Assembly: GCA_963678705.1 (NCBI GenBank)
Contig: OY783210.1
Coordinates: forward strand, 18,477,331 to 18,541,330
Direction: 5' to 3'
From: Panorpa germanica
Taxonomy: Eukaryota > Arthropoda > Insecta > Mecoptera > Panorpidae
DNA: 64,000 bases
In this document: piece after piece, positions 32,070-58,443 of the stretch
How positions within the stretch are numbered: the first letter of the stretch is position 1
How the letters are laid out: each line of letters opens with the position of its first letter
The notes under the pieces: model-generated
What the model was told of the DNA's origin: nothing
The model's database searches: none
The model's input: only the letters and a program-made list of their open reading frames with translations
Made by a program: the position numbers and the translations under genes

Positions 32070-32900
32070 ATGTCGCGGGACCCCTATGGGCCCGGCGCGG
32101 GCGTGAGCGCGGGTAGTCGATCACCAGGCCGTACAGGAACGTCTGGTTCACGAAGATTAACAGAATTACCCACCGTGGATCGTTCCCCGTCTAGAGGCTA
32201 CCCTGGTGGTAGAGGTAGCCCATTGGGAAGGAAGGCATTGAGGCAGACGAGATCTGGAAATAGTTCGCCGGACCACGGCGGTTATGGGACATACCATCAC
32301 GCCATGGGATCTCCGTACTATGGACGTGAAGACGACTTGGGAAGTCCGGGTCTATTGGACGATCGCGGGAGATCGACAGGAGGAGGGACAGGACATCATC
32401 GTTCCAGAAGTGCCAGTCGACCAGCACTGGGCCATCCAATGACAGTGAGATATCAGTCTCTAGATCGGGGTGGAATTATGAGCGATGGCCACGATCGTGA
32501 ATTTCTTCCGATACGGGAACCACGGGAGCGGTCTCTGGATAGATCTGCTGCCAGGGACCGCTCTCTGGAACGCGGTCTATATCTTGAAGAAGAGCTGTAT
32601 GGTACAGCTTCTCGGTCGGCTAGACAATCTCCTAATCCTCATGGCCTGCTGGGTAGCAGTGGCAGAGATGGGGGCATGTTTCTTGGTGAATTGCAACATC
32701 AAAACAGTGATCTGCAAAGAGAACTTGGAAATCTTAAGAAAGAACTGGAACTCACCAATCAAAAACTCGGCTCCAGTATGCACAGTATTAAAACTTTCTG
32801 GTCTCCAGAACTCAAAAAGGAACGGGCTCTCCGGAAGGAAGAAAGCGCGAAGTACAGCCTCATCAACGACCAGTTGAAACTTCTCAACAGCGAAAATCAG
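32070..32900 (+). CDS. brp: Bruchpilot (ELKS/CAST/ERC active-zone scaffold), first coding exon
   Basis: 277 codons end ENQ at 32900, followed by the donor GTTAGTG. The protein organises presynaptic active zones and clusters calcium channels. Residues 1-200 are disordered and rich in Ser, Arg and Gly. They include HHRSRSASRP (109-118), RYQSLDRGG and DREFLPIREPRERS. From about 204 the coiled coil starts with LQHQNSDLQRELGNLKKEL, followed by the ELKS/ERC signature SIKTFWSPELKKERALRK (239-256). The part from Met79 (MGSPYYGRE) onward corresponds to the Drosophila BRP N-terminus as I know it, so residues 1-78 are an extension or a second start. The ATG at 32304 (GCCATGG) is in a better Kozak context than 32070 (CACATGT). 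The rest of the gene is not recognised in the window. Confidence 0.93.
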
Positions 32901-33190
32901 GTTAGTGATCATTTTCACGTTTTCATTTCTTATTTATTCTATTCTATGATTATTTTGAACTTGTTTTGCACGTAATGGAGATTTAGATTCAGATTTTATT
33001 TGAAACTATTTAAGTGCCAGATGTACGTTGCCGTAAATCAAAAGTTTCCCTTCACATTGAAAAACTTTTTCTCGAGAGTTGATGACTTATTGATTTTGCT
33101 CAAGGTTTTTACATAGTAAATCTAAATATATTTATAGAAACCGTCGCTCTTACTTTTATGACATAACAATACATACCTACTAAAAATAGT

Positions 33191-52065: not shown

Positions 52066-53203
52066 TGTTGTTAAAGTTGGATAGATTATATGTTCACGTA
52101 ATCATAAAAACGTAAGCATAAAATAACATCTAAATACCACCCTGTAAATACCGTTATAATATTCCGATATAAATAATAGAGTTTAAGTACTATTAAATTT
52201 AATCCAATTAGTTCAAAATTATTATAATCCACTTTAGCACATTACTTTCTCGGTAAAAATAACATTATGCTTTACTTTTATGTACTGTGTTTTATATTCC
52301 TGTGTTTAATACATAATAATTTCATTTGCTGAACTTTGCTGAGGTATTAAAACTTAGAGCATAAAGCATTCGTCGATTTCAGAAGCAAAAATGATGGTAA
52401 TGAGGCAATATTAGAAAATAGTAATCAATTTTTAATCTAATAATCTGTTACGTTTACGGTTTTTAACGGTAGGCATTGTACTGTATTCTTATGCAGTGAC
52501 GTACACAGAAATTTGTTTTTTTTAATTTATGTAACACCATATTTATGTATAAATTGATACGTCGTTTTGTTGCAGAGAATACTGAACCAATCAAAGTCTA
52601 AGTATTGGTTTTCACTGTCCGCTGTTCCTTCCCTGTTAGTGATAGTGATTAAATTAGAATTTGTTATGTTTCGGTGAATTTAGCAGTTCGCTTTATTGAT
52701 TACCGTCAGTCAGTTTGAACGTTGAGGCATTCTCTGTTACAAATAATTGATTGAAAGCGGATTTAATGAAACATTCATTTCTAAGTGAGTGGGCTTACTT
52801 AGTTGAACTGTGTTGAACCCTGAACTGTGTTTTGTTACTATGATTCAGTTTTGTAAACGTTTATCTACATTACATTGTCTTTCAAATTACAAATTGCAAT
52901 TTTTTTTGCATATTTTTATTTTATTATTCAATGCTAATTCGATCAAATAGAACCAAATATACAGTGTAAAACTCGCATATAACAAAAAAGTTGCACTAAC
53001 AAAATAGGATTGCCTCATTTAAAACACGTTGAACAATCGTTTCTATCTGATTATTATTTATTATTTTTTTAGAACCTATTTCTTATGTTTCTGACATTTC
53101 TCTTGTTTTTTTTGTTTGCCTTACAAGTATGCAGCTATTATTATCTTACTATTATAATGTTCGTAATGTTCCAATTTAACATGGAAAACTCATAAGAACT
53201 CAT

Positions 53204-53205
<2 letters not shown>

Positions 53206-53239
<34 letters not shown>
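53206..53239. repeat. TA microsatellite
   Basis: About 34 bases of TA. It sits immediately before the first Helitron-like unit and hides that unit's 5' border. Confidence 0.9.
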
Positions 53240-53241
<2 letters not shown>

Positions 53242-53514
53242 CGGTAACAAAATCTGTATGGTATCTTCTAAACGGCGCCTACAAAGTTTTTTAAATTTTG
53301 ATATTATGTAAAGGACGAATTTCTAAGACTTTCTACGTCCCTGAATTTTTCCCTGAATTTCCCTGGAAAAAATTATTCTGGAAAAACTGGAAAATTTGAA
53401 AAAATACTTTTGCAAATATCTGACGAACTAGAAAAGATAGGAAACTGAAATTTGGTATGTGTATTCAAATCATAATTGTGCACATTTGCCAATAGTTGGA
53501 CATTTAAAATTTAA

Positions 53515-54640
53515 GTTCAGTAGCGGCGCGAATTTCCGGGGGCAATGTTAGAATAGAGTTAGGACGTTCAAATTTAATATGTAGGCTCGCTCTAGAGTGT
53601 TATTAATGAAAAAAAATAAAGAGCCCCAAATTTCCAGTGGCGGCGGGAGTTGAGTTAGTAAAAGCCAGAAATATTGAAAAAGTAGTATTAAAACTTAGGG
53701 CATGTATTGAGACACTAATTGCGAATGTTGCCAATAATTGGATTACCAAAATATTAATTCAGTAGCGGCGTGATTTTTTGGGGGCAATGTTGCAACAGAG
53801 CTAGAACGTTGATATTTGGAACGTGGGCTCTATGTAGAGTGTCATTAAAGACAAACTATAGAAAACTGCAACTTTCCAGAGGCGGCGGGCGCTGTGGGCC
53901 AAAAACCAGAAATATGAAATATATAGAAATAAAAGGCTATAGTTTAGATTATATGTTCTTAGATATAAATAAAATAGATCCCTGTGTTAAAATTTGACAA
54001 ACTTGTTCAGTAGCGCAGGTATGTGGGGGGGGGGTAATAATGCTAAAATATAAATACAAAGCTAAAATTTAGTATGCAGATATAGATTGACAAATTAATA
54101 ACGAAAATATAAAAAAAAAATCCTTTTCTTAAGTGTAACACTAGAGTGGGGAGTGATAAACCGAGTATAAGAACAAAATAGAGGTACAACGATGATATTT
54201 TGCATGTAGAATATTAAATAGAAGCACAATAGTTCTCTATAAGTTAGATAGTCAAATTACATTCAATAGTAGAATTGAATTGATTTTTGGTGCGTTCGTT
54301 GTGCTGTGAAATCGAACAGGAGTGAGAGGTATAGGGGGGAAATAGTTAACAGCCCCAAATATCAAATTAAAAAAATAGAAACTACGCATGTGCATATTTG
54401 CGAAAAATAAGTTTAACCTTAGTAGCGGCGTGAAATTGGGGAAGTGGGGGCGGGAAAGGCTTTGCCAAAGAGCTCAATTTTAAATTTCGATCATTTATAA
54501 AAGTAGATAGTAGTAATAAAGGTTATAAAAGTAGAGAGAATTGTTATGAGCAAAATAGATTGTTATGCCTAAAATTTGTCAATTTTATTTCAGGAGCGGG
54601 AATTAATGGGGAGGACAATATTATATCGTAAATATAAATA
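53515..54640 (+). repeat. Degenerate minisatellite, about 240-bp units
   Basis: Units begin TTCAGTAGCGGCG at about 53517 and 53758, then TTCAGTAGCGCAGG at about 54006, TTAGTAGCGGCGTG at about 54419 and TTCAGGAGCGGG at about 54590. Within units, GGGGGCAATGTT, GTTAGGACGTTC / GCTAGAACGTTG, and CCAGTGGCGGCGGG / CCAGAGGCGGCGGG recur. A run of ten G occurs at about 54025. Spacing becomes irregular toward the right. Confidence 0.7.
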
Positions 54641-54819
54641 CAAAAATTAGAACGTAAGATTACAGTGCAGTTTTAATTATGTAAATGAATTGCTGTAATA
54701 TTGAATTGGTAGTGCCTGATTGGAGGAGAGGGTGGCGCCGGGGTTCAGGACACCAAGTAACGGTGGTCTTAGAAGAAGTAGCGATAGATTATAATGGCTC
54801 TGGAAGATAACCGTGTTGT

Positions 54820-55635
54820 AGAATATGTGCTTTGGTGCTGGAAATGTGGGCGGCGGTTCAGGGGATTAAATTGAAAGTACAATAACGGGAAGGATAAGGG
54901 CTAGAGATGAGATGATTAGGAGCGAACCGCTAGGCTTTCTTAAAAACATAAATTAATTGATGTAATTAGTAGGTTTACATTGAAATGAGTGAAAATTAAT
55001 TTTATCAAGCATTTATCTTATCGAATAATTATTTAAAAATAATATACTTCTAAGGATGAAATTTAGTGTGTAGGTTGCCAGTAAAGTATTAATTATGAAA
55101 ACTAATTGTTAAGAGTATTAGTACGCAGGAGGTAAAAGCGCAAGATTGTTTAATGATTGCGGTAAAAGGGGCGATAGAACTGTGCCGTTATGTGCGATGA
55201 TTCTCAGGTTGGCTGTGGTGTTGCAAGTGGGCGCATTGTGGCAGAGGTGCAGAGGAATACAATTGAAAGTGCGAGAACGATACAGAGCATGGAGCCAAGA
55301 GGTGATGATTAGTATTACGGGGCGGGGCAGTGGACATTTTTCAATACTGCGCTTTATTAGGGTAAATAATAATTTTACACAGAGAGGAGGAAACGAAGGA
55401 TTATTTAATTATAGTGCTAAAGCGGGTGCGCTGTGAATGTACTCTAAGGACCGACGATGCTCAGGAAAGAAGCGATACAGAGTGCTGAAGGAAAAAGGCG
55501 CTCCATGGCGGAAGTTTAGAGGAATCAAATTAAAAGTTCGGAAATGTAAGAGAGCATGGAGCCAAAAGGTCATGATTGCGGCTTATGGGCGGGGGCACTG
55601 GAGACTGGTCAATACAGTGCTTTATTACTGTAAAT
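54820..55635 (+). repeat. Second degenerate repeat in unit 1, three copies
   Basis: AGAGGAATACAATTGAAAGT, then AGAGCATGGAGCCAAGAGGT and ATACTGCGCTTTATTA at about 55250-55370 recur at about 55518-55630. A partial match (GGGGATTAAATTGAAAGTAC) lies near 54860. The last two copies are about 268 bases apart. Open frames of 96 and 66 codons (55146 and 55437) share RAWSQ and VMI words only because of this duplication. Confidence 0.6.
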
Positions 55636-55796
55636 GAAAGAATTATAACAAAATAAAAAAAAAAAGTTTAAAAAAGGATATATTATAACGAAAATTACTT
55701 AAAAATAATATTTTGCATTATTTTCAATTTAGCAAATAAATTTATTTATTCACAAATATTAAATACACGTCGCTTTGCGACGGGGCGAAGCGCTAG

Positions 55797-56647
55797 TCCT
55801 ATATTATAATGTTCCAACTGTATGTTTATATTCTTATATGTTTACGCGATTCGTATGGTAGCTCGAAAACGGCTCCGTCAATGTTTCTGAAAATTTTCTA
55901 TTTTGTAGAGAAAAAAATTCTAAGACTTTTGGCGTCCCCGGATTTTTCCCTGAATTTCCTGGAAACCCGTTATTTGAAAAAACTGGAAAAAAAGTGATTC
56001 CTTTTTTGCTGTATTACTTTTAATTCGTAAAAGATAGAAAGTTGAAATTTTGCATGTGTATTAAGGTATTCAATGCTGACATTTCTCAAAAATTAGAAAT
56101 TCAAAAATTGAAAAAGGGGGGGTTGAAGAAATTCGGGGGCCCGGTATGGAACTTTGGAGAAAGTTCATATTCTGGATTCTATAATAATTAAATATATTAT
56201 TAATATAAAAAAATTAAAAATTTCAAAATTTTATTTGGGGGCACGGGGGCAGTATTTGCCGGGAGTAAAAATTGTGCTAGAAAGTTGAAATTTTGTATAT
56301 AGGCTAACCTTGGTAACTTATTTACGAATCGAAAAAAAAAATCCCAAATTTTGAAAAAAAATTGGTCAAATAACGCATAAATTTAAAATATTTTTTATTT
56401 TGTTGGAAAAAAGATATTTTTTTAGTCAATTTATATGTGTTAATGTATATGTGTGCGAGTTTATTATTTCAATTTAAAAATAGAGTTAAATATAATATGT
56501 AATTACAAATTATTTTATTGGATTCAAATGATACACGCCAAAAAGAACCTTTGTGACGAGGGAAACTCTGGTGGAATTAAAATTTTTACATGAAGTTCAA
56601 GCCACACACAAAAGACAGACGTCGCTTGCGACGGGGGTAAAAGCTAG
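55797..56647 (+). mobile_element. Helitron-like unit 2, head to tail with unit 1
   Basis: It starts TCCTATATTATAATG directly after the CTAG of unit 1 and ends with the hairpin CGTCGCTTGCGACG (56620-56633), then GGGGTAAAAG and CTAG (56644-56647) before T. TC...CTAG borders plus a subterminal hairpin are Helitron hallmarks. At 851 bp without a Rep domain it is non-autonomous. Its interior contains ATTTTTCCCTGAATTTCCTG, shared with unit 1. Confidence 0.7.
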
Positions 56648-56648
56648 T

Positions 56649-56664
56649 ATATATATATATATAA
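56649..56664. repeat. Short TA run between unit 2 and the foldback
   Basis: About 16 bases of TA. It separates the CTAGT end of unit 2 from the foldback's outer end. Confidence 0.7.
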
Positions 56665-56747
56665 ATACTAGCGTTCATCCCCGTCGCAAAGCGACGTCTG
56701 TCTTTTATATGTGAATTGAATTTCATCTCAAATTTTAATTTCCTTTT

Positions 56748-56930
56748 TACCGTGACGAGATATTTTTTACCGTGACGAGATATTTTTTACCGTGACGAGA
56801 TATTTTTACCGTGACGAGATATTTTTACCGTGACGAGATATTTTTACCGTGACGAGATATTTTTTACCGTGACGAGATATTTTTAACGTGACGAGATATT
56901 TTTACCGTGACGAGATATTTTTTACCATTT
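56748..56930 (+). repeat. Tandem array of ~20-bp CGTGACGAGATATTTTT units, left arm
   Basis: Nine units of 19-21 bases differ mainly in the number of T (five or six) and one C-to-A change. Regular spacing without unique spacers rules out CRISPR. Confidence 0.9.
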
Positions 56931-57057
56931 CCTTTTCCTTTTTCCTTTCAACTCTAACATTTCTATTATTGGTTTACTCTTAAAATACAAATACGAAATT
57001 AAAATGACTATGCAAAGAATATAGAATAGAATGGAATATAATATGTAACGTTGCCAA

Positions 57058-57192
57058 CTTTCTCGTCACGAAAAAATATCTCGTCACGTTAAAAATATCT
57101 CGTCACGGTAAAAAATATCTCGTTACGGTAAAAATATCTCGTCACGGTAAAAAATATCTCGTCACGGTAAAAATATCTCGTCACGGTAAAAA
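57058..57192 (-). repeat. Tandem array of the same ~20-bp unit, right arm
   Basis: Seven inverted units (AAAAATATCTCGTCACGG). One carries GTTACGG and one lacks the GGT. It is the reverse complement of the array at 56748-56930. Confidence 0.9.
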
Positions 57193-58443
57193 GGAAATTA
57201 AAATTTGAGATGAAATTCAATTCACATATAAAAGACAGACGTCGCTTTGCGACGGGGATGAACGCTAGTATCCTTAAACTGTTCTTTGATGTACTTTTCA
57301 GTCATGTTTATTATGTTTACTCACACAAGAGAAAGCATTGTACTGTAGACACAAATCAAAGATGAAAGAAATATGTTCTCTAAACGATTTTTATAAATAT
57401 TTTATATCATTTTTGTAGATGAATAACAAATTTATTTGATGTGTAACCATGTTTTTTAAAAGACGTAACTATTAGAGAAATATTTTGTTTTAAACCGACC
57501 ACTTACGGTCGTTCCAATAGGCGGTGCTTCACTCCCTTCCGTTTGGAATGACTTCTTTCAGTTTGGCCGTGAGTAGCAAGTCTGCTGTCTAAGAAGTTTA
57601 TGATAATATTTTGAAGAGAACAAGTTGAAACACGTTTTGGAGTGACGTCCTTTTAGTTTAGCAGTATGTACAAATTTAGAATAGGAGATTTCTCACAAAA
57701 TATTATTCGCTTCAGTTAAAACAAACATGGTAGTTGAAGCGTAAATTTAGTTTTACTGTCAGGATATCGACGTTACGATCTCACCCTTATCAAAATGTTT
57801 ATTGTAGATGTAAGGGATGTAAGTAACTACTTTCCAAAAGGTGAAAAGCATTTCCGTTTTTCCATCACACAACTTTATTACAATTTTCTTGGAGTGACGT
57901 TTTGAGATAAAGAATTTAGTTGGAAGAATGTGCGCTTGGGTCCTATTTCAATGGTAAGAAATCCCTTTGTTTTGAATATGTCATATAATGTGAGAAATTG
58001 ATACCCTACGGGATGAAACAACAGTATTTGACATTGAGAGTATAAATTTTTATATAAATTATTTATAACAAATTTTAAAAACTTTTTAAAACAAAAGTTT
58101 AATCTCGCTTATAATTACCTAGTTTTATCGAAGAAATTAAAATCTACAATTAAAAGTTTTCTATTTAAACTTTCTAATTATCATTTTTATTTAATTGCTG
58201 TAATAAGGTTCCATTAATAGATCTAAAATAAATATGTAAGTGTTTCCACTTTCATTAAAAAATAGTTAAGACTAATAGAAATGAAAATAGAGTTTATTTT
58301 CGGAAAGCAGACTTGTTTATCAATGTTTTTATTGGTTTAAATAGCTTCCTAGGTTCATGAACCTTTTTTGCACTTTATTAATTATTAATTTACACGGCAA
58401 ATGTAATTGTATTTAGTCATAATTGAGTTTCTGGGAGAACCTG

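Follow-up and report, generated by a model that had tools for sequence, protein, structure and literature searches.

Foldback (FB) elements have long inverted arms with tandem repeats, as in Tetris of Drosophila, and the target site duplication of Drosophila FB is 9 bp. The ends of canonical Helitrons have been described in PMC6544945 and PMC5714489, and in the Helraiser study (PMC4778049) the 5′ end is essential, the hairpin serves as a terminator, and read-through as well as Helitrons abutting one another are reported. Precise joining of the 3′ end to the 5′ end is reported in PMC5876387, and self-insertion in the opposite orientation, with loss of the inner termini, was proposed in PMC5148889. 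Here, we report a foldback-like element in a 64,000-nucleotide stretch of the Panorpa germanica genome (assembly GCA_963678705.1, contig OY783210.1; C7:18477331-18541330 of a 464-Mb genome), hereafter the window, in which both outer ends of the element are Helitron 3′ ends. We consider it likely that this element is the remnant of two sibling Helitrons with their tails outward, formed by opposite-orientation self-insertion and internal deletion and mobilised from an outer 5′ end.

Positions 56665-57271 of the window form a near-perfect inverted repeat, and the outermost 103 nt of both arms are identical. Both arms terminate on the outside in a canonical Helitron 3′ end, with the hairpin CGTCGC-TTT-GCGACG followed by 10 nt, CTAG and then T, so that the 3′ CTRR and the short hairpin about 10-12 nt upstream that define Helitron1 are present at both ends. 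The hairpin plus CTAG motif occurred in none of 100 shuffles of the sequence. A 19-20 bp repeat forms an array on the inner side of each tip (9 units on the left and 7 on the right). The long inverted repeats are made of tandem repeats, which is a characteristic of FB elements. The first-pass annotation had described a mirrored CGTCGC hairpin with CTAG(T) at both ends, inverted arms of a ~20-bp tandem repeat, and an end signature like that of two Helitron-like units upstream; all of these descriptions held, and the same kind of signature terminates both upstream units (H1 and H2, below). Helitron1 has no terminal inverted repeats, and the two-tip unit departs from it in this respect; measured from the outer 5′ end, however, the repeats are subterminal on one side. 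The parts of the element are as follows.

56648..56667, no strand assigned: AT-rich spacer (TA)nAAATA, the inverted tip starting past its final A
56668..56745, minus strand: left (inverted) Helitron 3′ tip with hairpin and CTAG, identical to the right tip
56744..56926, minus strand: left tandem array, about 9 units of TTTTTACCGTGACGAGATA
56926..57061, plus strand: segment between the left and right arrays
57061..57192, plus strand: right tandem array, about 7 units
57191..57268, plus strand: right Helitron 3′ tip (hairpin, CTAG), with a host T immediately after it

The element is one of many copies. The exact 21-nt tip occurs 62 times in the genome, 31 times on each strand (reversed control, 0), and each of them falls within the window or within one of the loci retrieved from the same genome, which are given L-numbers. 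When up to two mismatches are allowed, the genome holds 263 tips, 100 of which were listed; coverage beyond the exact tips extended to 4 of the 22 one-mismatch tips and to none with two mismatches. At least 19 loci carry two outward tips, comprising 16 exact pairs and three pairs with one altered tip, and the other copies that the first-pass annotation depended on thus exist at 18 further loci. Exact tips that are neighbours within 3 kb were divergent in 16 of 18 pairs (-+ 16, -- 2, +- 0, ++ 0). By comparison, the 21-nt tip of the H2 type has 2191 exact copies in the genome, and among the first 100 listed, all on C1, neighbouring tips were head-to-tail in 37 of 38 pairs (++ 19, -- 18, +- 1, -+ 0). 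Divergent pairing is therefore not general to the Helitrons sampled here. The borders A|CTAG and CTAG|T were found in 19/19 two-tip copies, including settings without an adjacent 5′ end. A pattern scan of viral contigs gave 0 matches, and in genome contigs it gave 14 bacterial records, which were taken as chance.

Several lines of evidence carry the reading of nested sibling Helitrons. First, one-tip parents exist. L049 is a complete one-tip Helitron of the same family ('Z'), 1704 bp long, with the ends TCATATATTATAATG...CTAG at ATCA|...|TGTA, and in eight further loci (L024, L032, L040, L048, L050, L052, L070 and L072) the parental sequence runs on upstream of the middle with no inverted arm there. 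Behind the Helitron 5′ end, the inverted tip interrupts an 8-bp (ATATTCTT)n array, always after CTTA, in all twelve copies concerned (the nine of group a, defined below, with L026, L028 and L043), at 40, 48, 56, 64, 72 or 88 bp. The array of L049 is uninterrupted and these sites are its A|T positions, which is why we favour insertion of one Helitron into another. The 3′ end downstream in L028 is of the H2 type. Insertion into an unrelated Helitron would have this outcome, and the host is thus not bound to belong to the inserted family. Separately, the two loci L028 and L051 have different Helitrons in apparently identical targets (TGTACTA|TATATTGATAAAGTGGG), which probably belong to a host repeat. 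In the middle of the family, the reverse strand of L031 at ~1131-1401 (P31 960-1230) resembles, by eye, the beginning of a stop-containing mariner transposase; a 33-residue piece had no Pfam match.

Second, the borders are those of Helitrons. In nine copies (group a: L030, L033, L034, L036, L037, L044, L045, L046 and L051), a Helitron 5′ end lies 40-64 bp outside the inverted tip, and all nine have the borders A|TC...CTAG|T. A TC after A, as in Helitron1, is found at this distance from one arm in these nine of the 19 two-tip copies; in the window a TC is available only through that of H2 at 55797, and none was found for L025 and L029. For L037, the joined flanks align in one piece with 40 scored copies (873 candidates) of a host repeat at 94-95% identity. 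Compared with the query, these targets have one extra base, and against another copy of the repeat the gaps lie only left of the border, with none at the border itself; the flanks are thus contiguous in the host repeat and represent an empty site without duplication. Insertion at A|T without target duplication was accordingly seen at 9/9 borders of copies with an adjacent 5′ end, and no target duplication of the FB kind was found at L025 or at the nine group a copies. The comparison of borders called for by the first-pass annotation, A|T without duplication against a duplication, came out on the Helitron side for the nine group a copies. As for the two alternatives it had offered, a tail-to-tail Helitron dimer is best supported, given the one-tip parent L049 and the 9/19 copies with a 5′ end just outside one arm, and a distinct mobile class is unsupported for those nine, although L025 keeps the bolder reading open.

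From these observations, a sequence of events can be proposed. A one-tip 'Z' Helitron would insert in the opposite orientation, at A|T, into the AT-rich 5′ part of another Helitron, and the middle would then be deleted, leaving an inverted 3′ end and a 3′ end. RepHel may start at the 5′ TC outside one arm, run through the inverted tip and stop at the outward CTAG, and the composite would enter an A|T site with no duplication. The closest 5′ end of this kind in the window is the TC of H2, and starting there would involve reading through the 3′ end of H2 itself.

Also in favour of nested insertion, most copies have internal joints of their own, one lineage excepted. The list gives, for each copy in the orientation in which it was retrieved, the parent position to the left and to the right of the joint.

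L036: 1122/509
L037: 1162/802
L044: 958/1133
L046: 657/1179
L034: 598/array
L045: 729/array
L030: array/1177
L029: array/880
window: array/1223
L033: 485/1309, with 215 bp unassigned between
L023 and L051: no body kept
group b minus L023 (six copies): common joint at 389
L025: separate, see below

A single foldback ancestor with one common joint was also considered and is unsupported; the joint of L031 was seen only in L031 among the loci scanned. The remaining two-tip copies fall into three groups. In group b (L021, L022, L023, L035, L039, L047 and L054), one tip adjoins a reversed 64-bp piece of a 5′ end, followed by the 3′ end of another Helitron; group c is the window copy, which lies downstream of H2; and group d consists of L025 and L029.

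The origin of the window copy involves its two upstream neighbours.

53144..55796, plus strand: H1, Helitron-like unit (TC...CTAG) with the 5′ end TCTTACTATTATAATGTTCG after A and hairpin plus CTAG at 55768-55796
55797..56647, plus strand: H2, complete non-autonomous Helitron of 851 bp, TCCTATATTATAATG...CTAG, the candidate 5′ end driving the adjoining foldback
56620..56647, plus strand: right terminal sequence of H2 (hairpin, spacer, CTAG), which would be bypassed in the composite

The first 567 bp of H2 match the 5′ part of L031 at 99% identity, and L031 is a composite terminating in the tip of the foldback, with the insertion borders GTTA|TC...CTAG|TTCT. L031 and L032 are both composites that have an H2 5′ end and finish in the foldback's tip, and both lie at A|TC...CTAG|T. 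Since L031 shares the 5′ part of H2 and ends in this tip, an H2-plus-foldback composite probably moved from the 5′ end of H2. In L031, compared by eye with the window, H2 sequence switches to the array at TTTCAA, which is consistent with a deletion spanning the 3′ end of H2 and the inverted tip. Full-length H2 is present in L071 at 100%. The junction of H1 and H2 (53144-56647) is exact, CTAG|TC, and resembles the head-to-tail junctions reported for other Helitrons. Further observations were made elsewhere: L072 has a doubled H2-type 5′ end, the second inside the first, with A before neither; doubled 5′ ends likewise occur in L021, L028 and L040; C8:15693877-15694318 resembles a second arrangement of H2, spacer and inverted tip, mirrored relative to the window; and at C1:1114851-1128407 a 14-kb stretch has eight H2-type tips, all on the same strand, which looks like an array of head-to-tail Helitrons. 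Within the window, 32070-32975 is a coding exon matching Pfam Cast (ELKS/ERC active-zone protein), and the Helitrons lie ~20 kb 3′ of it, possibly in an intron.

Several observations weigh against nested insertion followed by mobilisation from an outer 5′ end. For group b, the upstream 5′ end within ~0.9 kb has an intact TC in 2/7 copies, is truncated in 3/7 and is absent in 2/7; wider views showed an intact 5′ end 2.6 kb upstream of L047 and a truncated one 4.1 kb upstream of L035. For L025 and L029, the 1.5 kb on each side contain no recognised 5′ end. In the window, the TC of H2 comes after the CTAG of H1, that is after G and not after A; A precedes three of the five H2-type 5′ ends that were checked, and the two without it are both in the doubled end of L072. 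The flanks of the window copy yielded no empty site, its right flank being unique, and none of the nested pairs found had kept both inner 5′ ends. Since slippage following a single insertion could also produce array positions spaced by multiples of 8, the six positions are not counted as six events. Likewise, one ancestral dimer, or several, could have undergone separate deletions that gave the differing joints. Finally, tip position 42 agrees between arms in 19/19 copies (2 A/A, 17 C/C), and a private change of L046 is common to both of its tips, from which some correction between arms is possible. The U|array joint of L025, described next, belongs with these points.

L025 is the copy that most invites other explanations. 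It is a 2072-bp palindrome consisting of tip, array, a segment U, (TA)n and part of H2, followed by the mirror image; at the turn, 103 bp of H2 are unpaired and 2 bp are filler. The arms differ in their arrays (14 vs 7 units) and in the length of the TA run, and a single mismatch separates the two U arms over their 412 bp. L071 has the unmirrored order H2-(TA)n-U-middle-array-tip, with the tip cut short, and its U is identical over 412 bp. The joint between U and array occurs exactly twice in the genome (<=2 mismatches), once in each arm of L025, which is not predicted by two independent insertions without later conversion. The flanks are unique (TTAAA|CTAG...CTAG|TTACT) with no duplication, and no empty site was obtained. 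The simplest description is a real inverted duplication inserted without a 5′ end, and the alternative is the homogenisation of two head-to-head insertions.

These features fit snap-back synthesis, in which the 3′ end of a Helitron strand is copied a second time because the strand folds onto itself in the course of rolling-circle replication or afterwards, giving two 3′ tips. The inverted duplication of L025 with its unpaired stretch and filler, the joint private to its arms, the near-identity of its U arms and the change shared by both tips of L046 all speak for such copying. On the other side, in L030, L033, L036 and L037 the outer arm has body sequence that is absent from the inner arm, so the outer arm was not copied from it as they stand, provided that the inner arm did not become shorter afterwards. 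Nor do the two arrays of one copy resemble each other more than arrays of different copies do, which also favours nested insertion: in the 17 main-subfamily copies, the likeness of left and right arrays was 0.667 within and 0.642 between copies (p=0.25), and over all 19 it was 0.64 vs 0.58 (p 0.04), a small difference that two subfamilies can explain. The extra outer-arm body and the array comparison led us to reject snap-back in each event as the general mechanism, and we regard snap-back as an improbable origin for the window element.

A related explanation is a foldback with two 3′ ends that RepHel moves in the absence of a 5′ end, by joining each CTAG end to the A|T target. L025 lies between unique flanks with no duplication and no recognised 5′ end nearby, and the A|CTAG and CTAG|T borders of all 19 copies, also where no 5′ end is adjacent, agree with this. 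However, L025 is a single clear copy. L029 had also been taken as proof of insertion without a 5′ end, and this was weakened: its left flank is a host repeat ending at GATTTA, the right flank does not continue that repeat, and the locus looks like two insertions plus a deletion. Furthermore, deletion of the 5′ end abolished Helraiser transposition, according to PMC4778049. We hold this explanation of the window element to be unlikely. The more specific event suggested by L025, in which Helitron machinery inserts a folded-back palindrome by joining both CTAG ends to a single A|T site with both strands cut between A and T, and hence without duplication, seems to us doubtful. If true, the 5′ end would be dispensable for integration, and foldback transposons could form by themselves from a rolling-circle element. 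L025 thus poses a testable question, namely whether the Helitron 5′ end is required for integration or only for starting the copy.

The two remaining explanations fare worse. A terminal-inverted-repeat or foldback (DDE) transposon with acquired Helitron-like ends would account for the foldback-like arms, which are long, inverted and tandemly repeated, but there is no consistent target duplication (L025: TTAAA / TTACT), a Helitron 5′ end bordered as A|TC is present in nine copies, and the arms match one-tip Helitrons; with no reproducible duplication and with one-tip Helitron parents, this very improbable explanation was dropped. A long or short interspersed element (LINE/SINE) 3′ end with a microsatellite tail, considered for the TA run after H2, was likewise dropped because in other copies the end reads CTAG|T and the flanks vary. 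That a single Helitron end was folded back during assembly, by which the first-pass annotation would have been undone, has hardly any probability: inverted duplications are a known class of artefact, and in L021 and L039 outward Helitron 5′ ends on both sides make the near flanks partly mirrored, but the other 17 loci have unrelated sequence beside the two arms and the centres differ between copies.

The genome also contains candidate machinery. The Helitron_like_N profile gave 893 RepHel candidates, of which 150 were scored. L073 (894-5360) has an open RepHel frame of 1489 aa with Helitron_like_N and PIF1 domains, followed by ...GGGCAAAAGCTAG|T, and its 3′ end has the same layout as the foldback tip with a different sequence. 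Many RepHel matches have one score in common and a 1119-aa open frame, which together with the open frame of L073 suggests recent Helitron activity. A RepHel partner with the foldback family's own tip was not found in the two RepHel loci read (L073 and L074).

If the nested-Helitron reading is correct, foldback-looking elements can arise from rolling-circle transposons with no new enzyme required, and paired outward Helitron 3′ ends may be mistaken in annotation for a new terminal-inverted-repeat or foldback class. The genome holds enough similar copies to tell nested insertion from strand fold-back. The favoured mechanism is already known in outline; the parts for which no description was found in the open-licence literature are the retained inverted 3′ end, its address in the array and the palindrome L025, and no report of paired outward canonical Helitron 3′ ends was found in the open-licence literature searched.

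Compared with known systems, the element has the following features. FB transposons likewise have long inverted arms of short tandem repeats around a centre, but here there is no target duplication and the ends are Helitron 3′ ends. Helitron2, Helentron and DINE-1 elements share hairpins and inverted repeats near both ends as well as non-autonomous forms, whereas here the inverted repeats are whole ~80 bp 3′ tips with arrays and the ends are TC/CTAG; the asymmetric terminal inverted repeat and non-CTAG 3′ terminus of Helitron2/Helentron are lacking, the ends being CTAG|T. The composite FoHelis of Fusarium, as presented in PMC5148889, are the closest in the mechanism proposed, opposite-orientation self-insertion, but are of the Helitron2 type with asymmetric inverted repeats and lost inner termini, whereas here the inner 3′ end is retained, the element looks like a foldback and many copies exist. 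Finally, with canonical Helitrons (Helitron1, with Helraiser/Helibat1 as the yardstick), our element shares the TC 5′ end in nine of its 19 two-tip copies, the CTAG 3′ end with a 15-nt hairpin 10 nt before it, insertion at A|T without duplication, head-to-tail neighbours and RepHel in the genome, and it differs from them in the second, inverted 3′ end just inside the 5′ end, which gives rise to the long inverted arms.
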